Shown here one piece after another: positions 25,876-38,471 of a DNA stretch of 38,685 nt (its first letter is position 1; the number at the start of each line of letters is the position of its first letter). Origin of the DNA: an uncultured Chlorobiaceae bacterium (GTDB taxonomy: Bacteria > Bacteroidota > Chlorobiia > Chlorobiales > Chlorobiaceae); the NCBI GenBank assembly GCA_903882665.1, contig CAIRXW010000020.1, positions 1-38,685 of the forward strand, in the 5' to 3' direction. The notes beneath the pieces are model-generated. The model did no database searches. It had not been told where the DNA came from and saw only the letters and a list, made by a program, of their open reading frames with translations. A program made the position numbers and the translations under genes.

Positions 25876-26454
25876 ATGGCCAAACCGGCACTTATCCTTG
25901 CATCGCAGTCACCAAGACGACGGGAAATTCTCTCGTTGACGCTTCTGCATTTTGAAACCATGGCGGTCGAGACCCCGGAAGTGCTCGATCCCTTGTACTC
26001 AATCGAAGAAAATGTCACCAGAATCTCGCTTGAAAAAGCTGAGGCAGCCACACTGCTGCTGCCGGAGAAAAGGAAAAACAACATCATTCTTGCTGCCGAT
26101 ACCGTCGTGGCAAAAGGCAACCGGATCTATGGAAAACCGGCAGGATTTGATGATGCGTTCGATATGCTCAAAAGCCTCCAGAACCGCTCGCACCGGGTCT
26201 ACACTGGTTTTGTGCTCCTTTACGGCGGCAAAGCCCACACCGAATGCGTGACGACAACCGTAGAGTTTGAGCCCATAAGTGACAACGAGATCAAACGCTA
26301 CCTTCTCTCTGAAAAACCTTATGACAAAGCTGGGGCCTACGGCATTCAGGATCCCCTGATGGCCTGCCACGTCCGGCGAATTGAGGGGTGCTACTACAAC
26401 GTTGTCGGCCTCCCCCTCTCAAGGGTCTGCAAGGCGCTCAAAGCCTTCCTGTAA
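25876..26454 (+). CDS. maf: Maf-like nucleoside triphosphate pyrophosphatase
   Basis: A nucleotide-cleaning pyrophosphatase of the Maf/HAM1-like fold, hydrolysing non-canonical or modified NTPs (dTTP/UTP or m7GTP types); cytoplasmic, 192 residues. Motifs are LILASQSPRRREIL, the catalytic AADTVVAKGN (Asp at about 76), GKPAGFDDAFDML, HRVYTGFVL and DKAGAYGIQDP. KAGAYGIQ fits the YhdE/dTTPase branch. A good ribosome binding site (AAGGGA) precedes the ATG. Its 3' end overlaps the convergent GGDEF gene by 61 bases, with no terminator between. Confidence 0.96.
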   Translation: MAKPALILASQSPRRREILSLTLLHFETMAVETPEVLDPLYSIEENVTRISLEKAEAATLLLPEKRKNNIILAADTVVAKGNRIYGKPAGFDDAFDMLKSLQNRSHRVYTGFVLLYGGKAHTECVTTTVEFEPISDNEIKRYLLSEKPYDKAGAYGIQDPLMACHVRRIEGCYYNVVGLPLSRVCKALKAFL

Positions 26455-29246
26455 TCCGGCGAGAAGAGGACTGCTGCCGTTTCAGCACCAAAGAGCTCCC
26501 GACTATGCACGGCATCTAATGACGGCTCACCACAAAACACCGTAAAGCAATTTCTCCCGTCACTCTTCGACTGGTACATGGCATCATCAGCATGCTTCAT
26601 GAGCGTCAACTCATCCTCTCCATGAAGGGGATAGATGGCTATACCGATGCTGCACGAGATATTGATCGTATGACCTTCAATTTCAAACGGCTTGACAAGA
26701 GCATGAAGAATCATTTCGGCCACGGCCGCAGCATTCGATATGGCGACAATTTGCGGCAGCAAAACAACAAACTCATCGCCCCCAAGTCGTGCAAGCGTAT
26801 CGCCGCTCCTTCGCAATGCTTCGAGAGCACGGCTTGCCACCTGCTGAAGCAGCACGTCACCAATACCATGACCAAACGCGTCATTGACCGGTTTGAATTT
26901 ATCAAGATCAAAGAGCATAATGGCGGCCATCATACTGCTCCGCCGACACAGGGCAATAGCCTGGCCGATACGGTCAGAGAGAAGACGGCGATTTGGAAGA
27001 GCGGTCAAAGAGTCATGCATGGCCATATTTTCAATGACATACTTCTGCGCCTGAAGTATCGTCTGTTTCTCCTCCGCATTTTTTTTAGCAACAATATCCC
27101 AGGCGATATCGGCAAGAATACCAATCCATTTTACATCACTTTCATCATAGTTCGTACATTTGTTGCCGACACCGAGAATCGCAACGACCTTTTCATTGCG
27201 CAAGACTGGAACAACCACCTCTCGCTTTATTTCAGCATGACCTTCCGGCATCCCTTTGCGATCCTTGAGTGTTGCATAATCGTTATGGATAATGGCTCTC
27301 TTTTCCCGTGCAGCATCGTCCCACACAGCCTTGTCGAGCGCATAGTACTGCCCCTCACCAACGGCATTGCACATCTTTTTTATCGTATTGGTTGACCACG
27401 CTTCCAGCGAAAGTGTTATCTGATCCTCCGCAACAAAGTGAAAAAAGCCGATAGAGCTTTCGGTCAACCGCTCAGCTTCATCAAGTGTCAGTTGGAGCAA
27501 CTCCTTTATCGAATGGGTTCTTTCCATCTCAAGAAGAGCGATATGAAGTGCTGTGGCAACTTCGTAGTGTCGGCGCTCGGTGACGTCATGAACAATGGAA
27601 TAGAGGATGGATTTGCCATTCGACTCAATCGTCCTGCTAAAGACTTCAACATCGCGGACAGAGGCGTCAGCACGACGGTGACGGAATAAAAAGCCGGTTT
27701 TTTCCTCTGAACGGTTTTGCTCTATGGCTGCCTTTATCTCTTCAGGAGTGAATGTATTGATCTCCTGGATACGAATCCGGCGGAATTCATCAGCAGTCCA
27801 CCCATAAAACTTCTGGGCAGCAGGGTTGGCTTCCATAATGAAGCCTGTATCTGGATCAATGATAAGCATGATGGCAGAATGGCCCTCAAACATCGTCTTG
27901 AAACGCTGCTCGCTTTGGCGGAGAGCCTCTTCCGTTTGACGGCGCAGCACTTCCAACTGGCGGGTATCAAGTGCAAAGGAGATATCCCGTCCAATCTCTT
28001 CAAGCAATGCAATTGCCGCTTCGGAAATAAATTCAGCTTCGACGGCATAAAGATTCAGCAATGCAACTACCGCGCCATTGAGTCGAATAGGAACTGACAC
28101 GCCAGCATGAAACCCGCCCGCGACCGTCATCTCCTGCCACTGCTTTGTAGCTGGGTCTGTCTGGATATTTTTACAGAAAACGACCTTCCCGCTTTCCACG
28201 GCTGATGCGACGATCCCCTGGAGGAAGGGCTCCTCCTTTATATTAATCAAGGTAAACGGGAGAAACGTTTCCGTCGCACCATACACGGCTTTAGGTGTAA
28301 CAAGAGCAGTTTCATGGTCGATCTCACCGATCCAGGCCAGACCGAATTTACCATACTCCACAGCCACGCGGCAAATGGTTTGAAACAACAGCCCCCTCTC
28401 CTTGACATGCAAAATGGCTTGATTCACCTGACTGAGCATAGCATAAAGCCTCGAAAGATTGCTGATTTTCAGCTCATTTTGCCTGCGCAGCTCCAGTTCA
28501 ACAAGCAGGTTTTCGCTCGTGCTGTTCAATTTTGCTGTGCGCTCTTTGACACGCTCTTCCAGTTCGCTGTTGAGCAGTTGCAGCTTCTCTTCAGCACTCT
28601 TTCGCATCTTGACTTCATGGTTGATAATGACAAAAGAGAGGAGTATGAGGCAAAGAGCCAAACCCATGCCTGCTGTCATGGCAAAAATCATCTGCTGCAT
28701 GCTCTTGTCAGCCAATCCGGAACGCTGCTGCAGGAGCACCTCCTCTCTCGTTTTCATCTTGACAACGAGACGGCGGACATCATCCATCACCTTCCGGCCG
28801 ACATCGGCGGCTATCCATTCCTTCGCAGCCTCAAACCCTGCACTTCTCCTTAACTCAACAACTTTTTTCATAAAGGCCAGTTTCTCGCCAATAACAGGCT
28901 CAAGCATCCCGAGTTGCTCTTGTTGCTGCGGGTCAATGATCAATTGACGCAGCTCCTGCAAGTGCCAACCGATCCCCCTTTTTGATAAAACTGCATCATA
29001 ATAGGGTTCAAGAAATTTTTCATTTCCCATGATAACGAAACCACGCGGAGCTGTTTCGGCGTCGGTAACCAGAGAAAACAGTTCATCAAGTCGGCCTTGT
29101 ATCACAAGCGTTCGATGGAGCTGCCGGTTACTCTCGATAAGGGCGTGGAGATGGTTGACCATATAGAGAGTCAGTCCGAGAATCATTGCGAACGCCAGGG
29201 CAAACAGGATTTTTGGACTTCGGCGAATCAGGTTACGTCTCATCAT
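26394..29246 (-). CDS. CHASE3-GAF-PAS-GAF-GGDEF diguanylate cyclase
   Basis: A 950-residue membrane-bound signalling enzyme that should make cyclic di-GMP from two GTP. An N-terminal transmembrane helix (about 14-32) is followed by a periplasmic CHASE3 sensor (about 38-185, with TDAETAPRGFVIMGNEKFLEPY), a second helix (about 190-210) and a coiled coil. Then come GAF (about 275-430), PAS (about 445-565, QRFKTMFEGHSAIMLIIDPD), a second GAF (about 570-735) and GGDEF. The active-site LGGDEF lies at about 821-826. The inhibitory I-site RSGD sits exactly five residues before GGDEF, so product feedback is expected. No EAL domain is present. It lies 86 bases downstream of the glycosyltransferase gene on the same strand. 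Its 3' end overlaps maf. Confidence 0.95.
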   Translation of the reverse strand: MMRRNLIRRSPKILFALAFAMILGLTLYMVNHLHALIESNRQLHRTLVIQGRLDELFSLVTDAETAPRGFVIMGNEKFLEPYYDAVLSKRGIGWHLQELRQLIIDPQQQEQLGMLEPVIGEKLAFMKKVVELRRSAGFEAAKEWIAADVGRKVMDDVRRLVVKMKTREEVLLQQRSGLADKSMQQMIFAMTAGMGLALCLILLSFVIINHEVKMRKSAEEKLQLLNSELEERVKERTAKLNSTSENLLVELELRRQNELKISNLSRLYAMLSQVNQAILHVKERGLLFQTICRVAVEYGKFGLAWIGEIDHETALVTPKAVYGATETFLPFTLINIKEEPFLQGIVASAVESGKVVFCKNIQTDPATKQWQEMTVAGGFHAGVSVPIRLNGAVVALLNLYAVEAEFISEAAIALLEEIGRDISFALDTRQLEVLRRQTEEALRQSEQRFKTMFEGHSAIMLIIDPDTGFIMEANPAAQKFYGWTADEFRRIRIQEINTFTPEEIKAAIEQNRSEEKTGFLFRHRRADASVRDVEVFSRTIESNGKSILYSIVHDVTERRHYEVATALHIALLEMERTHSIKELLQLTLDEAERLTESSIGFFHFVAEDQITLSLEAWSTNTIKKMCNAVGEGQYYALDKAVWDDAAREKRAIIHNDYATLKDRKGMPEGHAEIKREVVVPVLRNEKVVAILGVGNKCTNYDESDVKWIGILADIAWDIVAKKNAEEKQTILQAQKYVIENMAMHDSLTALPNRRLLSDRIGQAIALCRRSSMMAAIMLFDLDKFKPVNDAFGHGIGDVLLQQVASRALEALRRSGDTLARLGGDEFVVLLPQIVAISNAAAVAEMILHALVKPFEIEGHTINISCSIGIAIYPLHGEDELTLMKHADDAMYQSKSDGRNCFTVFCGEPSLDAVHSRELFGAETAAVLFSPDYRKALSALQTLERGRPTTL

Positions 29247-29332
29247 AGATTGTTATTATGACCTCCAGGCCAAGAAGCCATATTTTGCTGTAAAAAAAGC
29301 TGTTGCTATCAATAGGTCAATCATCTCTCCAA

Positions 29333-30784
29333 TTATGGTACCGGTGGTGACCTGTACTCTGTTCGCTCCCTGTAACCATAAGCTAACTTGCCTCTTACCA
29401 GCAGATCATACATGCCCATAAGCCGGCAGAGAACATGAAATTGATGAAAACCGAAATGCTCAATCAATCCGGCCGACAACATGCGGATAAGATCGCGGGT
29501 TTTTTCCTGCCGCATTCTCGTCGTTGACTGCAGCAGCACGGCGCAAATCGAAACAAGCGTGCCGAGCATAACTCCGAAAATAAAGAGCAGCATCAGTATG
29601 GCTGGACTGTCTATCCTGAAGAACAATACCAGGACTGCGATAATGTATGCACCAGCCTCCACCAGGGCAGAGAGCGCTTCAAAAATGAAATAAAAAGGAA
29701 TACCAAACATTCCAGCCATCCCGTAAAGGCTATTGAATGCCATATCGCGGTTCCATATCAGCGACTGGAGAATGGCCCGCTGCCAGAAATTGCGTTGTGA
29801 ACAGAAGGCTTTAAGGGTTTCTGGTACCTGACTGTAACATCCGGGATCAGGGATATAGGAAATCTCAAAATCCTTTGCTTCCGGATGCTCATGGATGTAG
29901 CGGTGAAGAGTGACGGTAAGCTCAAAATCATCAACGACCGCGCCAACATTTGCCCCTCCGACAGCAATAAAAATCTCTTTTCTGATGATCGTAAAGGCAC
30001 CCGACATGCAGAGCATGCTCTTCAGTCGGGTGAGCCCCAGTCGGGCCCACTGGAATGAGCGGAGATATTCAACAGCCTGAAAGAGCGGTATCCAGGTTTC
30101 AGGCAGATTACGCTTGATGATGCGCCCGTTTTCAACGATAAGCCCATTTGAGGGACGTATGATTGCCGCAGCAGCCACCACATTGCGATTATAGAGGAAG
30201 GGGCGAATCATATAGAGCAAGGCATCCTCTTCAAGCACACAATCGGCATCGATCTGGCAGATTATCGGATAGCGTGCATGGTCAACTCCTGAATTATTGG
30301 CGTCGGCTCGCCGACCGTTCTCCTTGTCGACAACAATCAGGTTCTTGTGAACTGCCGAGTGGTAAACCGCACGAACGGGCTTTGAGGGAAGCTGCTTCTT
30401 GAATACCTTGTCGAGAGGCTCCAGTTGAAACCGCTCAATGAGGAGCTTCAGTGTGCCATCCTCGGAGCCGTCATTGACAACAATAACCTCAAACTGCGGG
30501 TAGCGGAGTTGCAAGACATTGAGAAGGGTCTGGACAATCACCTTCTCTTCGTTATAGGCCGAAATGACAATCGAGACGGGTGGCGTCAAAGGAGAGTCGC
30601 TGATGCGTTTGAATTCGTGAAACTGAATCCCCTGGTGGTACCGTTTTTGATCAATGGAGCCAAACAGAATGAGCAAAAAATAGATGCCGTGCATCATCAG
30701 ATAGTAGATGAGGATAATCCTGACAAGGATATCGAGGACCGCCAGCATATCCGGGCTCATGGTTGCGAAGTAACGGTACTGCAT
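29333..30784 (-). CDS. Processive-type family 2 glycosyltransferase, membrane-bound
   Basis: A 483-residue inner-membrane glycosyltransferase resembling chitin/cellulose/hyaluronan-type synthases and E. coli YaiP. It has an N-terminal helix (about 14-42), then the GT-A domain: VSIVISAYNEEKVI, VIVVNDGSEDGT, KENGRRADANNSGV, the DxD metal site QIDADCV and the acceptor Asp in VVDDFELTV. Where processive synthases have QxxRW, this has SQRNFWQRA, so the Arg is Phe. About four C-terminal helices (from about 345) form the membrane part. No PilZ domain is attached. Two starts are possible: ATG 30784, or ATG 30760, which makes an exact ATGA overlap with the HEAT gene stop. It probably polymerises a surface glycan; the sugar is unknown. 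Confidence 0.93.
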   Translation of the reverse strand: MQYRYFATMSPDMLAVLDILVRIILIYYLMMHGIYFLLILFGSIDQKRYHQGIQFHEFKRISDSPLTPPVSIVISAYNEEKVIVQTLLNVLQLRYPQFEVIVVNDGSEDGTLKLLIERFQLEPLDKVFKKQLPSKPVRAVYHSAVHKNLIVVDKENGRRADANNSGVDHARYPIICQIDADCVLEEDALLYMIRPFLYNRNVVAAAAIIRPSNGLIVENGRIIKRNLPETWIPLFQAVEYLRSFQWARLGLTRLKSMLCMSGAFTIIRKEIFIAVGGANVGAVVDDFELTVTLHRYIHEHPEAKDFEISYIPDPGCYSQVPETLKAFCSQRNFWQRAILQSLIWNRDMAFNSLYGMAGMFGIPFYFIFEALSALVEAGAYIIAVLVLFFRIDSPAILMLLFIFGVMLGTLVSICAVLLQSTTRMRQEKTRDLIRMLSAGLIEHFGFHQFHVLCRLMGMYDLLVRGKLAYGYRERTEYRSPPVP

Positions 30785-31845
30785 TTTATGAGACTTCGCT
30801 CCTGCATGACCAGCCGACTGACTTCAGCAGCAAACCGGTCTTCATGGGTGAGCGCATTTTTCAAGGCTGTGATGCCCTTTTGGCCGAGTTCAGCCAGAGC
30901 ATCGGCTGAGTTATAACGAACCCACCAGACTGAATCGCCAAGAGCGCCCGCCAGCGCAGCAATTGCGCGATCGGCTTTCAACAACCCCAAAGAGCTCGCT
31001 GAGAGAGCCCTGACCTCCCAGGCGCTGTCGCGCATGGAGTCGCACAAGGCTGTTACTGCTTCGAGCCCTCCAATATTGCCAAGGGCTTTTGCGCTCTGTA
31101 TGCGAAGCTCTTTGTCAGGACTGGAGAGATAGGCAAGTATGAGGGGAATGGCCTGACGAGCACGCTGCAGGCCAAGTGCACTGATGGCAAATACCTTGCC
31201 GTCATTCTTTGGTGAAGGTTGCGCAAGGTAGTGCAAAAGAATCGGGATCGCTTCACATCCCATCTCGTTGATGATCTCAATTGTCCGTGCAGCAGGCCAT
31301 TGCGCCGGTGCAGAGAGTTGTTCAAGAATGGGAACAGTGGCCTCGATGGCCTTTATCTTTGCTAATGAATGGGCGGCTGAAAACCTGACCATCAGAGACT
31401 TGTCTTCAAGCGCACGAAGCAACGGAGGAATAATAACGTGATTGATTGCGATATAGGGCAGATAGGTTGCTGCCCGCTGACGCCTCCGCCAGTTTCTTGA
31501 GTGCGAAAGTCGCCGGAGTTCCTGTTGCACCAGAAAATGCGTGCCCGTCGTCTCAAAAATATAGAGCAGCTTCTTTCGCGCAGCCTCTCCCATCTCTTCG
31601 GCAAGCTGGGCCACAAGGCCGATGAGCAGCTTCTCTTCGCCATGATCCGGGGTACTGAACGCCGACGCACGAATCTCTCCCCTTAGACAGCCCTCAAGAG
31701 CTTCGCGCAAGGCTGAACGACCTTTTTTTGCCAGAGCCTCCCGCCGAATGGCCATATTGTTGAACAGGACGACCCATATCGACAGAAGAAGGACGATGGC
31801 AGTCAAAAAAACAATGGCTTTTGCAATGAAAAAAAAAACGGTCAT
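30757..31845 (-). CDS. Membrane-anchored HEAT-repeat protein
   Basis: A 362-residue protein with one N-terminal transmembrane helix (about 5-28, FFIAKAIVFLTAIVLLLSIWVV) and a long cytoplasmic alpha-solenoid. From about residue 125, repeated units of about 30 residues occur, such as LLRALEDKSLMVRFSAAHSLAKI, LAYLSSPDKELRIQSAKALGNIG, LCDSMRDSAWEVRALSASSLGLL and LAGALGDSVWWVRYNSADALAELG, typical of HEAT/PBS-lyase repeats. Such solenoids bind other proteins. Its gene starts inside the epimerase stop (ATGA) and ends at the glycosyltransferase start (ATGA). I therefore infer a scaffold or regulator of the glycosyltransferase at the inner membrane. No enzymatic motif is seen. Confidence 0.92.
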   Translation of the reverse strand: MTVFFFIAKAIVFLTAIVLLLSIWVVLFNNMAIRREALAKKGRSALREALEGCLRGEIRASAFSTPDHGEEKLLIGLVAQLAEEMGEAARKKLLYIFETTGTHFLVQQELRRLSHSRNWRRRQRAATYLPYIAINHVIIPPLLRALEDKSLMVRFSAAHSLAKIKAIEATVPILEQLSAPAQWPAARTIEIINEMGCEAIPILLHYLAQPSPKNDGKVFAISALGLQRARQAIPLILAYLSSPDKELRIQSAKALGNIGGLEAVTALCDSMRDSAWEVRALSASSLGLLKADRAIAALAGALGDSVWWVRYNSADALAELGQKGITALKNALTHEDRFAAEVSRLVMQERSLIKCSTVTSQP

Positions 31846-32822
31846 GCTGTCTCAAGCCTCCTCCGTTCCAGTGAGATAAGATTATCGAGAGTATCTGGCA
31901 AGAGCCATTTCGCTTCAAATCCAGTCAGTTCATGCAACTTGTCGAGAATCGGGCGGCGGTGGGTAATCTCATCAATCTCCATGCCATAGGCCTCTTTATA
32001 GGAGAGAAATGCCAGCGGGGAGCTGCTCCCGGCCCGTTTCGATACAAGCGCAGCCAATTCAAGAATAGAGATCTCCTGATCATTGCCGACATTGACAATC
32101 TCGCCATTTGCAGCGGGTGACGAAGCTAAAAGCTCCAATGCAACGACCGTGTCGCGGACATCACAAAACGAGCGGGTCTGCAATCCATCGCCATAGATAG
32201 TAATCGGCTGATTATTGACCGCCTGATGAACGAAAGTCGGCACCACCATGCCATATTTACCACGTTGACGAGGGCCAATGGTATTGAACAGACGGGCAAT
32301 GACAACCCTGATGCCGGACTTGTACATGAATGAGTAGGCAAGAAATTCGTCAGCAAGTTTTGTAACCGCATAACACCATCGTAATCGGGCACCTGAACGA
32401 AGCACAATATCGTCTGTTTCTGAAAACCCGTTTTGTGTATTAAAACCGTAAACCTCTGAACTGGAGGCGATAGTGACCTGTGCATCCGGTCGCACCTCTG
32501 CAACTGCCCGAAAGACCCTCTCCGCTGCAGCGATATTCGTAGCCATAACCGCCCGGGGGTCCTCGAGCACCTTTTTAACTCCCACAATTGCAGCCATGTG
32601 ATAGATGCGCTCAACCTCGCTGACCACCTCTTTCAATTGATCCCAGACAAGGATATCTGCCTGGTGAAATAGAAAGGACGGATTATGGAGGAACGGCTGT
32701 ATATTGTTGATCGACCCGGTCGAAAGATTGTCGACAACAGAGACCCGGTCGCCCCGTTCAAGATGATGGGCAACAAGATGAGAGCCGATAAACCCGGCGC
32801 CACCAGTGACAAGTACATGCAT
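31842..32822 (-). CDS. NAD-dependent sugar-nucleotide epimerase/dehydratase (extended SDR)
   Basis: A 326-residue extended short-chain dehydrogenase of the GalE/RmlB/UDP-glucuronate epimerase superfamily. The NAD site VLVTGGAGFIGSHLV is at the N terminus. The catalytic Ser lies in IASSSEVYG, and Tyr/Lys in YAVTKLADE (YxxxK). RLFNTIGPRQRGKYGMVVPTFV is typical of the substrate half. It probably converts a nucleotide sugar used by the adjacent glycosyltransferase; the exact sugar is undetermined. The ATG at 32822 has a strong ribosome binding site (AAAGGAG, 5-6 bases), so the upstream 21 codons of open frame are excluded. Its stop overlaps the HEAT-protein start. Confidence 0.94.
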   Translation of the reverse strand: MHVLVTGGAGFIGSHLVAHHLERGDRVSVVDNLSTGSINNIQPFLHNPSFLFHQADILVWDQLKEVVSEVERIYHMAAIVGVKKVLEDPRAVMATNIAAAERVFRAVAEVRPDAQVTIASSSEVYGFNTQNGFSETDDIVLRSGARLRWCYAVTKLADEFLAYSFMYKSGIRVVIARLFNTIGPRQRGKYGMVVPTFVHQAVNNQPITIYGDGLQTRSFCDVRDTVVALELLASSPAANGEIVNVGNDQEISILELAALVSKRAGSSSPLAFLSYKEAYGMEIDEITHRRPILDKLHELTGFEAKWLLPDTLDNLISLERRRLETA

Positions 32823-32888
32823 AACCACTCCTTTTTGACTTGAGATAAAAAAATTATACATCCACGATGGTACCTCCCCGTCCACCCT

Positions 32889-34721
32889 TTAAGTTAACTC
32901 CCCGGTGGTTATCATCTTCAAAAACAGGGCAACTATTTCTGGGTCAAAGTGTATGCCTGAAAGCGATTTGATATGCTCAATCAATGCGGCCTTTGGCAAA
33001 CCCTGACGATAGGGCCGATCAGATTGCATGGCATCCCATACATCAACAACGGCAAACAGACGCGCGGCCAAGGGAATTTGCTTCCCTTTCAATCCGCGGG
33101 GATAACCACTCCCATCCCATTTTTCATGGTGACAATAGGGTATGTCGATCGCGCAACGCAGGTAGGTGATCGGCGAAAGCAACTCAAAGGCGAACACAGG
33201 ATGCTTGCGCATGAGAACCCACTCCTCCTCGGTCAACTGATCACCTTTAAAAAGAATGGTGTCCGGGAGAGCCATCTTGCCAATGTCATGCAAAAGAGCT
33301 CCACGACGGATATCGGCCATGGCATCATCCGGGATTTCTGCTGCACGGGCAAGCTTCATGGTCATATCTGTTACGCGACGGGAGTGACCTTCGGTCGCTT
33401 CATCCCGTAAATCAAGTGCGTGTGACCAGCCCTCAATGGTGGCATCATAGGCATGCAAGAGCTCCTGATTGGCATGGCGCAAGTTTTTGACTGATTGATC
33501 ATCTTCAATCGCCATAGCCGCCAGGCCACCCAGGTTATGCAGAAAATCAAGCCAATCAGGGTTTATCTGCAATGGTTTTCGTTGAAAAATCTCAAAGAGT
33601 CCGATAAGATTATTTTTAACAACCAGAGGAATGGCGTAATACTCAACAAACCCTTCGCTTTCGAGAAAAGAGGAAGGAAGAAATGCATCACCAGTAACGG
33701 CGAAGTTTGAACGATGCAGCTCTTTATGCTCAAGCAAGTTCTGCCATGCAGATCCAGGTACAATTTTCAAATCAGTACGCTCAGTTGTTAGCCCCCGAAA
33801 CCCGCAACCTGCCTTATAATTCAAGGTATGGAGGTAGGTATCCATCAAAAGAAAATCAGCAGCGTCAACTTGCAGTTCTGAAAGGGTAAATTCAAGTATG
33901 GTTTTAAGCGACAGGTAAACATCAGTCGTTCCCCTTATGACAAAGTCAATTTCCCGCAAAGAGCGCAGGTGTTGCAACTGACGGCGGAGCTCTTCCTCGG
34001 CCAATTTCCGCGCTGAAATATCAATACCGGCACCGACAAGAAATGGATTGCCATCGATGATCATTCTGCTGCCGGTCATCAGGAATCTCTTGTATTGCGG
34101 GCCTCCTTGAAGCAGTACCCTGGTTTCAGTAATCAATTCTTCACCGTTCTTCATAATCTTCTCTACTTTTTCAGCCATCATCGCTCTGTCATCCGGATGG
34201 ATGCACTCAATGCCAATGATGCCGACCATTTCGCTTTCGGTTTTACCAAAAATTTGATCACGAACGAAACGATTCCACGCAGTCAATGTTCCGCTTGCAT
34301 CATGAACATAAAAGGAGCCCGGAATGGCTTCAATCACCGACCGACTAAAGAGCCTCTCATTTTTCAGCAATTGCCCGATATCGGTAATATCCCGGGCGAT
34401 GATCAACAGTTGATCAATTTCACCCTGCGGTGATTGAGAGGGATAAACGGTATAGCGCAGAAGCCGAACCTCATATTCATCGTCCCAAGTGATGGTTTTC
34501 CGGCTCCGTAACACCTCTTGCATCACGACCAATCGCTGCTCCGCTTCTTCAGGTGACAGCAACTCGTAATAATTTTTTCCCCGGCATTCCGCCTCACGCC
34601 TGCTAAATCTGGAGCAAAAAGCGTTATTGGCTTCAAGGATGATACCCTCCCGGTCAATAAGAAAGATCGGTTCTGAAACGGAGAAAAAGAGTGGTAAAAA
34701 TGAAATTTCACGATTATTCAT
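32889..34721 (-). CDS. PAS-PAS-GAF-HD-GYP cyclic-di-GMP phosphodiesterase
   Basis: A 610-residue cytoplasmic signalling protein without transmembrane segments. The first PAS (about 10-115, SEPIFLIDREGIILEANNAF) and second PAS (about 125-240, EAIPGSFYVHDASGTLTAWN) are followed by GAF (about 265-405) and HD-GYP (about 430-605). The metal-binding GHSRRVTD, LLHDIGKMALPD and HHEKWDGSGYPRGLKG motifs are complete, so c-di-GMP hydrolysis is expected. Start ATG 34721 has GGGGTGG just upstream; a TTG-type extension to 34766 is not supported. The gene lies 66 bases before the epimerase gene on the same strand and probably heads or joins the glycan operon. Confidence 0.94.
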   Translation of the reverse strand: MNNREISFLPLFFSVSEPIFLIDREGIILEANNAFCSRFSRREAECRGKNYYELLSPEEAEQRLVVMQEVLRSRKTITWDDEYEVRLLRYTVYPSQSPQGEIDQLLIIARDITDIGQLLKNERLFSRSVIEAIPGSFYVHDASGTLTAWNRFVRDQIFGKTESEMVGIIGIECIHPDDRAMMAEKVEKIMKNGEELITETRVLLQGGPQYKRFLMTGSRMIIDGNPFLVGAGIDISARKLAEEELRRQLQHLRSLREIDFVIRGTTDVYLSLKTILEFTLSELQVDAADFLLMDTYLHTLNYKAGCGFRGLTTERTDLKIVPGSAWQNLLEHKELHRSNFAVTGDAFLPSSFLESEGFVEYYAIPLVVKNNLIGLFEIFQRKPLQINPDWLDFLHNLGGLAAMAIEDDQSVKNLRHANQELLHAYDATIEGWSHALDLRDEATEGHSRRVTDMTMKLARAAEIPDDAMADIRRGALLHDIGKMALPDTILFKGDQLTEEEWVLMRKHPVFAFELLSPITYLRCAIDIPYCHHEKWDGSGYPRGLKGKQIPLAARLFAVVDVWDAMQSDRPYRQGLPKAALIEHIKSLSGIHFDPEIVALFLKMITTGELT

Positions 34722-34794
34722 TTCGCCACCCCGAAATTGTTGATTGCATAAAGCAGCATAGAGCACCTCCTGATTTGTTATGTGCCACTACTTA

Positions 34795-35628
34795 TCACAA
34801 GATGATACGAAGTCCAAGTTGCCCGCCATTGCGTTGATAGTAATCACCTTCCATGCCATGCCAGTATGCAGCAACCACCCCGACTCTCTTGAGGGGCCAA
34901 AAGAGGCCGTCAAGCTGAAGGAAGTTTGTCTTTATTGATGAAAGGCTGTTTTGGTAGACGACTTCAGGCTCGATACCAAACGCATAGGTCACCCCAAGGC
35001 GGCTATTGCTGGCAGATATCCATTGTACCTGCACTCTGTGAGCAAACTCCCCACGACTATGATCAATTGATGAAACAAGGGCGGTATAGGCAAACCGAAA
35101 CTCCCCGGCATTTTTTTCAACACCCAGACTCTCAATATTTGTTTTTGCTTCATGGTATTGCCGCTGTTCTGCTCCAAGCGTATAACCAAACCCGTCTGGA
35201 AGCTTTCCATTCCACATCAATCCGACCGTATTCTTTGCCAGAAAATCCGGGTTTGCGGCGTAACTGCCACCCAACGTGATAACACCAATCGGAAAGGGGT
35301 AGGCATAGGAGGCACCGATAGTCTGGTCTGATAACCCAAATCGAAAAACATCATCACCTTGAACAGTGATGAGCCCGAAAGCTTTGAGTGGCAAACAGGC
35401 CCTGACATATTTACTGTTCCAGTCAGGAGCGTGAGTGGTCAGATAGTCGGCAGTATAGCCCGCCTCAAGGTATGGCGCAGCATCAAAAACTGAAGGTCTT
35501 GTTGCCACACTCTCCTCTGCCGCAGCCGGCGTGGCTTGCAGCAAGAGTGATAGGGCGATTGCTGATCCCATAAAGGAAAAAAGCCTTTTTTTAAAGGGCA
35601 ACACCGGTTTCCGGGTAAAACTCTTCAT
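34795..35628 (-). CDS. YaiO-like outer-membrane beta-barrel protein
   Basis: A 277-residue exported protein. The signal peptide has a basic N region (KPVLPFKKR), a hydrophobic core and a cut near PAAA-EES (about residue 37). The mature part alternates short amphipathic strands rich in Tyr, Gly and Phe and ends QLGLRIIL, consistent with a beta-barrel. YLEAGYTADYLTTHAPDW near the start and the general size fit the YaiO family of outer-membrane proteins. In E. coli, yaiO lies near a glycosyltransferase gene (yaiP), as here. It may help polysaccharide leave the cell. I use the ATG at 35628 rather than a TTG four codons upstream. Confidence 0.8.
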   Translation of the reverse strand: MKSFTRKPVLPFKKRLFSFMGSAIALSLLLQATPAAAEESVATRPSVFDAAPYLEAGYTADYLTTHAPDWNSKYVRACLPLKAFGLITVQGDDVFRFGLSDQTIGASYAYPFPIGVITLGGSYAANPDFLAKNTVGLMWNGKLPDGFGYTLGAEQRQYHEAKTNIESLGVEKNAGEFRFAYTALVSSIDHSRGEFAHRVQVQWISASNSRLGVTYAFGIEPEVVYQNSLSSIKTNFLQLDGLFWPLKRVGVVAAYWHGMEGDYYQRNGGQLGLRIIL

Positions 35629-35668
35629 GGTTTTTGACAATTAACGTTGTTGGCAATTGATTCTGCGA

Positions 35669-37096
35669 TTAAAGAGATTTCCTTATGGTTTCAATACTAA
35701 ACGACTCCTTGATTTTTGAGGAGGAAAACTTGAACTTTTTTTCTCTAAAAAGCCTGAGACATATCGCTACAATTTTCGGATCAAACAACTTTTCGCTCTC
35801 CTCCAGGATGTTCATCAAGGCAATATCGAGCCCCACTGCCACCCGGTATGGTCTTGAACTGGTAAGTGCCTCAACGGTATCGGCCACACCAATGATGCGC
35901 GCCTCGTCACAGATGCTGTCGCCCTTGAGGCCGTTTGGATAGCCGCTTCCGTCAAGGCGTTCGTGATGCTGCAACACGGTTTGCGCTACCGGCCAGGGGA
36001 AATGAATAAGCTTGAGGATTTTGTAGCCTTCAATAACATGGCTGCGTAACATCCCTATTTCAAAATCAGTCAATGCTGTCGGCTTGGTAAGGATCTCCGC
36101 AGGGATAATAAACTTGCCGATATCATGCAGCATGGCACTCATGCGCAACCCTTCCAGATTTGTTTCAGCGTAATGCAGCTCTTTGGCAATCGCAACCGAG
36201 AGTTCGGCGACTCGAAGCTGATGTCCGGCCGTATAGGGATCGCGTGCCTCCGCCATAGAGACCAGAGCGTTGACCAGATCATCCATACCGATCGCGGCAA
36301 GATATTGAACTTGCCGCAATTTTTTCAGACTTGAAATGTCACGGATATTGCATTCAATCACTTTTTCACCGCCAGCATCGTAAACATTACCTATAAACTC
36401 AACGTCAATGAGCTGGCCGTATTTTTTTTTCAGGGGCAGATTTTCATAACGGAGATAATCTTTCCTTTGCAACTCCTCATAAGCCTGAAGGGTAAAATCC
36501 TTGTCAAACGTGCTGCCGATCTCCCAGAGCTCTTTGCCAACAAGCTCCTCGTAGGAAAACCCGAGCAGGTCAAGAATAAAAGGATTGGCATCGACGATTT
36601 GGCCACTTATAAAATCCAGAATGAGAATGCCATTCTGCGCACTTTCAAAAAGCCTGCGATAGCGTAACTCTGACTTAGCCATTTTCTTGGTCAGAATTTT
36701 TCTTTCAGAAACATCGCGAATTTCGCACTGAATTACTTTTTCAAGTCCAACTTCATAAACATTGCTGACAAACTCAACATCGATGACTTGCCCGTTCTTA
36801 TGCTGCAATGGCAGATCGTCGTAACGAATAAAATTATTGGTCTGCAGTTCCAGATAAGCATGTCGGGCCAGTTCCTTGTCAATAATGAATCCAATCTCCC
36901 AGAGCTCTTTGCCAATAACTTCATTGACTGCAAAACCCAGCAGATTGGTGATAAAAGGATTGGCATCGACGATTTTGCCGCTCTTGAAGTCAAGAATCAG
37001 GATACCATCCTGTGCGCTTTCAAAAACTCTGCGATAGCGTAACTCGGATGCCTGGATTGCTGCGCGTGATGACTTACCCTTATCTTTTGAAATCAT
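35669..37096 (-). CDS. Tandem-PAS HD-GYP cyclic-di-GMP phosphodiesterase
   Basis: A 475-residue cytoplasmic protein with two near-identical PAS domains and an HD-GYP domain. PAS1 (about 17-128) and PAS2 (about 142-253) align without gaps at 74 of 112 identical residues (SELRYRRxFESAQxGILILDF; IVDANPFI; GKELWEIG). The HD-GYP part (about 275-460) has GHQLRVAELS, LHDIGKFIIP (H324, D325) and HHERLDGSGYPNGLKG, all metal ligands in place. GAGGG four bases before the ATG at 37096 is a good ribosome binding site. It lies 34 bases downstream of the histidine-kinase-like gene on the same strand, suggesting that the two are co-expressed and functionally linked. Confidence 0.95.
   Translation of the reverse strand: MISKDKGKSSRAAIQASELRYRRVFESAQDGILILDFKSGKIVDANPFITNLLGFAVNEVIGKELWEIGFIIDKELARHAYLELQTNNFIRYDDLPLQHKNGQVIDVEFVSNVYEVGLEKVIQCEIRDVSERKILTKKMAKSELRYRRLFESAQNGILILDFISGQIVDANPFILDLLGFSYEELVGKELWEIGSTFDKDFTLQAYEELQRKDYLRYENLPLKKKYGQLIDVEFIGNVYDAGGEKVIECNIRDISSLKKLRQVQYLAAIGMDDLVNALVSMAEARDPYTAGHQLRVAELSVAIAKELHYAETNLEGLRMSAMLHDIGKFIIPAEILTKPTALTDFEIGMLRSHVIEGYKILKLIHFPWPVAQTVLQHHERLDGSGYPNGLKGDSICDEARIIGVADTVEALTSSRPYRVAVGLDIALMNILEESEKLFDPKIVAICLRLFREKKFKFSSSKIKESFSIETIRKSL
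36338..37048 (-). repeat. Tandem duplication encoding two PAS domains
   Basis: Two units of about 336 coding bases at a 375-base period, with long identical stretches such as AAAAGGATTGGCATCGACGA and CTGCGATAGCGTAACTC in both (plus-strand reading). Protein identity is about 66%. Confidence 0.9.
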
Positions 37097-37130
37097 AATA
37101 CCCTCTTTTGCGAAGCGTGTTTACAAAGTG

Positions 37131-38471
37131 TTATGCATAACAGGGCAGATAGACTCTGACGGTCGTTCCCGTTCCAAATTGAGTCTCAACAGTAACCAAT
37201 CCCATGTTCTGTTTTGTGATGCCTTGAACGATCGGAAGGCCAAGGCCCGTCCCGTTACTTTTGGTGGTAAAAAAAGGATCAAAGAGATGGTCGGCGCTCT
37301 CTTTGGTCATACCCATCCCGGTGTCACTTATCTCAATGCAGACATACTCTCCTGGTATTGCGTTTGTATCAGGATAAATCTCATCTTCATGCAGGTGATG
37401 ATGGTATATCTTCAGCTTTAACATTCCACCATTCGGCATGGCCTCTTGTGCATTGTCAACAAGATTGCCCAAAATCTGACATAACTGGTTGCGATCAATG
37501 CTCACAAAAGCCGGATTAATACTTTTTTGAACGGTCATGTTGATTTTTTCATCAACAAGCAGCTTCAATGAATCAAGCTGGTCGGAAAGCACGGCATTGA
37601 TATCCATTTTTTCCGATTTTATCGGCGTAGAACTGCCTAAGGCTGAGAGAAGCCCGCTCATCTCCAGTGAACGATGTAAACCTTGTTTGATGGCCAGTAA
37701 CTGCTCACGGCTGGCACTGTCGAGACTCGTGGATTGAAGAACAAGATCCATTTTTTTGTCCATTTCGGTCATCGTTGACTGAAAATCTTGACCAATCCCG
37801 CGTGAAAACCGCTTCATCAACTCGACTTTCTGGAAAACAGCGAGCTTTGTTTCCAGCTTTTTGATTTCAACGACAGACTTTTTTTGAGCGGTAATGTCAA
37901 TCACCGTTGCATGACACACATCTTTACTTCTGTGAGCTACAGCGTCAATGCGAAAAAAACGGCAAAGCTGCATGGGCTGCTGATTAATAAACTCCACTTC
38001 AACAGAGTCGGAACTATTGCTGGCAAAGATGCTGTTCAGAAAGTTCTTGAACAGGAGCCGGTCATGCAGCGCAACAAACTGCATAAATCTCGCTCCGACA
38101 AGGTTTGACCGTGTAATGCCAAAAAGTGTTGTACAGGTCAAATTGATCTCGACTATGGTACCGTTTTCGGAGAGCGTCATAGCACCTATGGGCGAAAAAT
38201 CATACAGTTCGTTATAATGCGTAGTGCTTTGCTCAAGCTTTATATTGGCCCGATTCAACTCTTCCTGCTGCATTTCAAGCTCGAGTTGATGAACCTTCAG
38301 TTTATGCATCACCCGCTGCATATCAAGGCGCATCTCGGGGAGATTATCAGGCAGACCATAGGCATCCAGACCATTTTTAAGAGATACCTTCTTTTCCTTT
38401 TTTTCGGCACCGCCTGGTTTTTCAGGAGAATCTGTCATCGATGGTTTGTTTTTTTTTGACCATTGTTTCAC
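37131..38471 (-). CDS. PAS sensor histidine-kinase-like protein lacking the phospho-His
   Basis: A 446-residue cytoplasmic sensor. A coiled-coil-rich N terminus (about 45-85) is followed by PAS (about 86-195), then a dimerisation region and a HATPase domain. Where kinases of this type have GIAHDFNN, this reads GIGQDFQS (about 226-231), so the acceptor histidine is Gln228 (codon CAA). The ATP-binding part is intact: N-box LGNLVDNAQEAM (about 334-345), G1 DTGMGM (about 383-388), F-box LFDPFFTTK and G2 GTGLGLPIV. It could bind ATP but not autophosphorylate in the usual way; no receiver protein lies nearby. The start is GTG 38471 or ATG 38438; neither has a strong ribosome binding site. It is the first gene of the minus-strand signalling/glycan block. 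Confidence 0.9.
   Translation of the reverse strand: MKQWSKKNKPSMTDSPEKPGGAEKKEKKVSLKNGLDAYGLPDNLPEMRLDMQRVMHKLKVHQLELEMQQEELNRANIKLEQSTTHYNELYDFSPIGAMTLSENGTIVEINLTCTTLFGITRSNLVGARFMQFVALHDRLLFKNFLNSIFASNSSDSVEVEFINQQPMQLCRFFRIDAVAHRSKDVCHATVIDITAQKKSVVEIKKLETKLAVFQKVELMKRFSRGIGQDFQSTMTEMDKKMDLVLQSTSLDSASREQLLAIKQGLHRSLEMSGLLSALGSSTPIKSEKMDINAVLSDQLDSLKLLVDEKINMTVQKSINPAFVSIDRNQLCQILGNLVDNAQEAMPNGGMLKLKIYHHHLHEDEIYPDTNAIPGEYVCIEISDTGMGMTKESADHLFDPFFTTKSNGTGLGLPIVQGITKQNMGLVTVETQFGTGTTVRVYLPCYA

Follow-up and report, generated by a model that had tools for sequence, protein, structure and literature searches.

The window analysed here is the whole stretch of 38,685 nucleotides, one entire contig of a 2.81-Mb host genome of 57 contigs. 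The host genome contains a match to the FMO bacteriochlorophyll protein (742 bits), which identifies it as that of a green sulfur bacterium; its genus is probably Chlorobium. The ORF listing of the window places eight co-directional genes on the minus strand, spanning 26394-38471. With the window being a complete contig, whatever precedes the locus upstream of 38471 is out of view. An earlier note on this DNA had described these eight genes, and their coordinates, shared orientation and families all hold against the ORFs and the Pfam and NCBIfam profiles. Read along the minus strand, the genes are:

37131 to 38471, minus strand: PAS and HATPase pseudo-histidine kinase (Pfam PAS_9 and HATPase_c)
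35669 to 37096, minus strand: HD-GYP phosphodiesterase 1 (HD-GYP1), PAS-PAS-HD-GYP (HD_5, 1.2e-36; HHERLDGSGYP intact)
34795 to 35640, minus strand: YaiO-family outer-membrane barrel (TIGR04390; likely start at 35628, then a signal peptide)
32889 to 34766, minus strand: HD-GYP phosphodiesterase 2 (HD-GYP2), PAS-PAS-GAF-HD-GYP (HD_5, 1.7e-34; HHEKWDGSGYP intact)
31842 to 32885, minus strand: NAD-dependent sugar-nucleotide enzyme of the extended SDR type, called EPI (Epimerase, 2.7e-46; likely start at 32822)
30757 to 31845, minus strand: membrane-anchored HEAT-repeat protein, called HEAT (HEAT_2, 1.9e-29; N-terminal TM)
29333 to 30784, minus strand: processive-type GT2 (Glycos_transf_2, 5.2e-22; likely start at 30760)
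26394 to 29246, minus strand: CHASE3-GAF-PAS-GAF-GGDEF diguanylate cyclase, called DGC (GGDEF, 5.1e-47; CHASE3, 2.7e-31)

The EPI-HEAT and HEAT-GT2 junctions are 4-base overlaps, and the remaining intergenic gaps are 3-86 bases. An Rfam scan of the window that included the c-di-GMP riboswitch families gave no match. Promoter and terminator scans of the window came out close to shuffle level and were uninformative, and PADLOC, run on the pseudo-kinase together with some further window proteins, gave no match either.

Both HD-GYP proteins carry the HD pair plus HHE..DGSGYP that characterizes phosphodiesterases, and DGC keeps the GGDEF motif and an RxxD I-site. Predicted enzymes for both making and breaking c-di-GMP are encoded in the locus, as the earlier note had inferred. 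The same note was right to speak of a pseudo-kinase. The phospho-acceptor His of an active histidine kinase is replaced in the alignment by Gln in the window protein and by Asp in the G020 homologue; a G010 paralogue in the same alignment does carry the His. The place of the pseudo-kinase is taken in G021 by a CheB-CheR-PAS fusion (L030:6807-9899) and in other relatives by an ORF of similar size, 1017-1036 aa (L029, L118, L119, L122).

Genomes of green sulfur bacteria hold few c-di-GMP genes. HD-GYP was found in 16 of 41 genus genomes, and most genus genomes have one GGDEF gene and zero HD-GYP genes. The host genome has three HD-GYP and three GGDEF matches in total. Two of the former and one of the latter fall within the 12 kb of the locus, a clustering beyond chance. 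No intact copy of the ~430-aa diguanylate cyclase of nearly all genus genomes was seen in the host genome, which shows just a weak partial GGDEF match in a 625-aa frame (G000:C35:16039-16344). Profile searches of the host genome found no PilZ, MshEN or EAL domain. As PilZ and MshEN are both absent from it, some other c-di-GMP receptor would be required.

The YaiO protein passes both profile cut-offs (TIGR04390, 71.3 against 32 bits; PF19413, 35.4 against 23.9 bits). A structure model predicts a 14-strand barrel (barrel pLDDT >90) and shows the barrel only; TPR is absent from the window protein but fused to YaiO in the relatives L035 and L036. The fold resembles OmpG, CymA and FadL, and its likeness to exopolysaccharide exporters is a general barrel likeness only. 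Exporters of 16-18 strands are wider than a 14-strand barrel. The YaiO barrel is likely to be an exporter. EPI had been called an epimerase. The name stands for its Pfam family, and a PDB search refines it, the best match being the UDP-glucuronate decarboxylase UXS1 (1.2e-43). The SSSEVYG, YAVTK (YxxxK) and QTRSF segments of EPI align with UXS1; EPI reached no curated model, and the LegB and RmlB models score equally.

The catalytic positions of GT2 (D, DxD, D and Q-R-x-x-W) are invariant or nearly so across 93 homologues. The QRxRW of the wider GT2 family reads QRNFW in the window and QRNFW or QRNWW across the genus, so that Phe or Trp takes the place of the QxxRW Arg in every genus sequence examined. 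The genus GT2s also show K to R, G to T and E to D changes at otherwise near-invariant positions. Because the Arg of QxxRW is replaced, GT2 activity or processivity could differ in the genus, and the genus enzymes may use an altered sugar donor, which is testable. Among curated models, GT2 is most like PgaC/IcaA (3.6e-31), and hyaluronan and cellulose synthases are similar too. It scores 108.5 bits against the 422.3-bit cut-off of the PNAG synthase model (PgaC/IcaA, TIGR03937) and 41 bits against the 699-bit cut-off of the cellulose synthase model (CelA/BcsA, TIGR03030). Pfam detected no MshEN in GT2 itself and no periplasmic polysaccharide-modifying enzyme among the eight locus genes.

Does GT2 make a polymer? 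One alternative model has it transferring sugars one at a time onto a lipid or envelope glycan; HEAT would then act as an assembly factor and YaiO as a structural porin. This model would account for the genus-specific motif in place of QRxRW, for scores below the curated PgaC and CelA cut-offs, and for a cassette that holds no modification or hydrolase gene. However, all the remaining catalytic positions are kept, the overall likeness is to processive synthases, and the distribution of YaiO described below suits an export path. We regard single-sugar transfer as unlikely.

The structure model of HEAT (pLDDT 93) shows a single N-terminal TM helix followed by a HEAT solenoid. An excess of K/R after the TM occurs in 69 of 69 HEAT homologues, which by the charge rule predicts a cytoplasmic solenoid. 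No residue is invariant across the 69 HEAT-family sequences. The matches of a fold search were generic HEAT/ARM proteins and designed alpha-Rep proteins, and no known c-di-GMP-binding HEAT fold was among them. Two HEAT partners elsewhere (L083:7963-9963 and L099:8145-9959) are longer by ~250-300 residues, which may be fused domains.

The GT2 alignment, scanned against 84,980 named species genomes, yielded 80 loci, picked by GT2 alone, that span Bacteroidota, Acidobacteriota, Pseudomonadota, Bacilli, Nitrospira, Elusimicrobia and others. HEAT was then sought in these loci with an iterated HEAT profile. A HEAT gene lies directly upstream of GT2 in 75 of the 76 loci that have upstream sequence, and the two ORFs overlap or nearly do so in most; the profile had no match at other positions within the loci. 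HEAT and GT2 thus form a fixed pair across phyla. The sole exception is L060 (Nitrospira), whose HEAT and YaiO genes are on the strand opposite GT2, several kb off. YaiO is found in 37 of 47 non-Firmicutes loci (10 have no detected YaiO) and in none of the 17 Firmicutes loci, which is what one would expect of an outer-membrane exporter. The pore genes of known synthase-dependent systems are likewise missing in Gram-positives (PMC7112194).

Some of these loci contain additional parts. In the Bacteroidota loci L033, L034, L085, L089, L096, L116 and L117, ORFs of ~1,140-1,180 aa join the HEAT-partnered GT2 to a sulfatase-family domain (PF00884), and a YaiO gene adjoins. Firmicutes loci encode a large protein, 700-1080 aa long and membrane-anchored (L065:11359-14592, L112:11398-14610, L095:11260-14436, L086:6518-8743 and L067:5785-8835). 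The scanned examples beside HEAT-GT2 had no Pfam match, and the protein is perhaps a modifying or exporting part in Gram-positives.

What regulates the HEAT-GT2 pair? A receiver-domain gene is nearby in 56 of 64 HEAT-GT2 loci, and the short receivers at the loci keep the phospho-acceptor Asp and the Lys in 67 of 68 cases. A GGDEF gene is nearby in 16 of 64, several of them degenerate, and an HD-GYP gene in 1 of 64. Outside the genus the usual partner of HEAT-GT2, and presumably its usual regulator, is a single-domain response regulator and not c-di-GMP. These counts bear on the proposal of the earlier note that HEAT may replace PilZ-type control, taken here to mean that HEAT is itself the c-di-GMP receptor in place of PilZ or PgaD. 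The host genome without PilZ or MshEN leaves room for such a receptor, HEAT is the invariable, membrane-anchored and cytoplasm-facing partner of GT2, and several Bacilli have GGDEF-REC genes directly upstream of HEAT. On the other hand, a receiver protein with no c-di-GMP gene nearby is the arrangement at most loci, several of the neighbouring GGDEF domains are degenerate, and neither the residue conservation of HEAT nor its fold search points to a c-di-GMP site. The loci do not support HEAT as a general replacement for PilZ, and HEAT as the c-di-GMP receptor is improbable, with perhaps one chance in several.

Within the genus, GT2 and YaiO, both searched, are confined to the identical 6 of 37 genomes. 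HEAT occurs in 8 of 65, namely these six plus G062 and G069. YaiO-EPI-HEAT-GT2 is contiguous in G021, G062 and G069, although the GT2 of G062 would fall past the contig end; HD-GYP2 sits between YaiO and EPI in the window's clade. EPI is present with the cassette in each of the eight genomes of the genus that carry it. The locus is split across contigs in G020 and G034. G034 also has two versions of the DGC-GT2-HEAT end on separate short contigs (L027, L028, L029), and its assembly probably mixes strains.

Further evidence comes from G010 and G026, which have the maf and SSS symporter flanks of the window and keep the HD-GYP1-HD-GYP2 pair at 73-80% identity to that of the window. Both genomes are without the two glycan blocks (YaiO, and EPI-HEAT-GT2), and G026 retains DGC too. 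In G010 the tails of DGC (residues 879-904 and 932-950) and of the pseudo-kinase gene persist as scars, indicating that the glycan genes were lost and that their absence is not primitive. That two separate glycan blocks are gone together argues for a joint function. The four glycan genes YaiO, EPI, HEAT and GT2 form one unit.

Is this unit tied to c-di-GMP? An HD-GYP2 orthologue is near the cassette in G000, G012, G020, G021, G024 and G034, and at least one GGDEF and at least one HD-GYP gene lie within several kb of the cassette in all eight cassette genomes. The glycan set is conserved jointly in relatives together with c-di-GMP genes, a point in favour of the earlier note. The signalling genes outlast the glycan genes at the identical site in G010 and G026, which argues that they are not dedicated solely to GT2. 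One possibility is that the cassette is real and the adjacent c-di-GMP genes serve other targets, with HEAT-GT2 ruled by receivers elsewhere or by expression and the locus being a signalling hot spot. The scarcity of GGDEF and HD-GYP genes near HEAT-GT2 across phyla agrees with this possibility, as does the variable upstream sensor gene within the genus. It is harder to reconcile with the association in all eight cassette genomes, with G069, where the GGDEF and HD-GYP neighbours are divergent or non-orthologous genes at a different site, and with the G010 scar, according to which DGC was lost along with EPI-HEAT-GT2. We regard service to other targets as a possibility of rather less than even weight. 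The association of GGDEF and HD-GYP genes with the cassette is real in the genus and is no general property of HEAT-GT2, and c-di-GMP control of the cassette is plausible.

The model that we favour, with moderate confidence, is that YaiO-EPI-HEAT-GT2 is a synthase-dependent surface-polysaccharide machine that is receiver-controlled in most bacteria and probably c-di-GMP-controlled in Chlorobium. From the sequences and models we infer polymer synthesis, the identity of the sugar, export, contact between HEAT and GT2, and any c-di-GMP effect. The SDR enzyme, which is UDP-glucuronate-decarboxylase-like, would supply or modify a sugar nucleotide. GT2 in the inner membrane would polymerise the sugar and drive the polymer through that membrane. 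HEAT, anchored by its one N-terminal TM and with its cytoplasmic solenoid next to the GT domain, would be indispensable to the synthase as its scaffold or gate, and the 14-strand YaiO barrel would be the outlet of the polymer. In most bacteria, the phospho-receiver protein encoded just upstream would be the control input. In Chlorobium, where the receiver is absent, the sensor DGC and HD-GYP enzymes encoded beside the cassette would set the c-di-GMP level, and c-di-GMP probably acts via the HEAT-GT2 complex or on transcription. Several observations count against this model: the HD-GYP genes of G010 and G026, and DGC in G026, that persist where the glycan genes are gone; the replaced QxxRW Arg of the genus; the missing periplasmic modification enzyme and TPR; the narrowness of a 14-strand barrel beside exporters of 16-18 strands; and the 10 non-Firmicutes loci with no detected YaiO.

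A bolder version, which we offer tentatively and think may well not hold in full, is that HEAT-GT2 represents an undescribed multi-phylum class of synthases in which HEAT is the signal-receiving subunit instead of PilZ, BcsB or PgaD. It would mostly serve phospho-receivers, and in green sulfur bacteria c-di-GMP, with a GT2 active site re-tuned there, perhaps for the product of the decarboxylase-like enzyme. The main biofilm polymers under c-di-GMP control are synthase-dependent exopolysaccharides. A HEAT-partnered arrangement found as far apart as Bacilli, Bacteroidota and Pseudomonadota would add a widespread and so far unexplored way of making surface glycans. The locus itself is a clear candidate c-di-GMP target in green sulfur bacteria, and it is directly testable.

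How does the locus compare with known systems? A literature search on YaiO, HEAT repeat, GT2 and exopolysaccharide found no description, which is weak evidence given its thin coverage of subscription papers, and the main reviews found mention neither HEAT nor YaiO. The statement in the earlier note that no described system has this composition agrees with the search; the HEAT-GT2 pair has a much broader distribution than was supposed there, and it seems to be undescribed. The same note had pointed to E. coli yaiO and yaiP as neighbours. In the yaiS-yaiP-yaiX-yaiO region a YaiO-family barrel gene does lie near a GT2 gene, as in the locus. However, the parallel is weak, because an IS2-interrupted yaiX stands between the two, YaiP has no QxxRW, reaches only 47 bits against the GT2 profile and falls outside the subfamily, and the region has no HEAT, GGDEF or HD-GYP gene.

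Another comparison is with E. coli NfrBA, which makes the N4 receptor glycan. NfrBA also combines a GT2 synthase with an outer-membrane partner, a linked sugar-nucleotide enzyme (WecB-like) and a dedicated, locally acting diguanylate cyclase (PMC8669469). NfrB carries a c-di-GMP-binding MshEN (PMC8669469), whereas the host genome has no MshEN and the partner at the locus is HEAT. The PNAG (Pga/Ica) system contains PgaC/IcaA, the best match of the locus GT2 among curated models, yet the locus has no PgaB- or PgaD-like gene.

A 2020 survey of synthase-dependent exopolysaccharides counts five systems, namely cellulose, acetylated cellulose, PNAG, alginate and Pel (PMC7112194). Like the locus as we read it, these have an inner-membrane GT2, a membrane partner subunit, an outer-membrane barrel and nearby c-di-GMP enzymes, and as with HEAT-GT2 the outer-membrane part is missing in their Gram-positive versions (PMC7112194). 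The locus differs in having HEAT where those systems have PilZ, BcsB, PgaD or Alg44, and a 14-strand YaiO barrel that is without TPR in the window version. A modification enzyme and TPR are usual there, whereas the locus has no periplasmic modification enzyme. Receiver proteins are the usual neighbours of HEAT-GT2, which is not among the five listed systems (PMC7112194). We class the locus as a variant of the synthase-dependent systems that corresponds to no named member, with a GT2 below the PgaC and CelA cut-offs and neither PilZ nor MshEN. What is new in it is HEAT as the partner of a synthase, together with changes at the GT2 active site that are specific to the genus.
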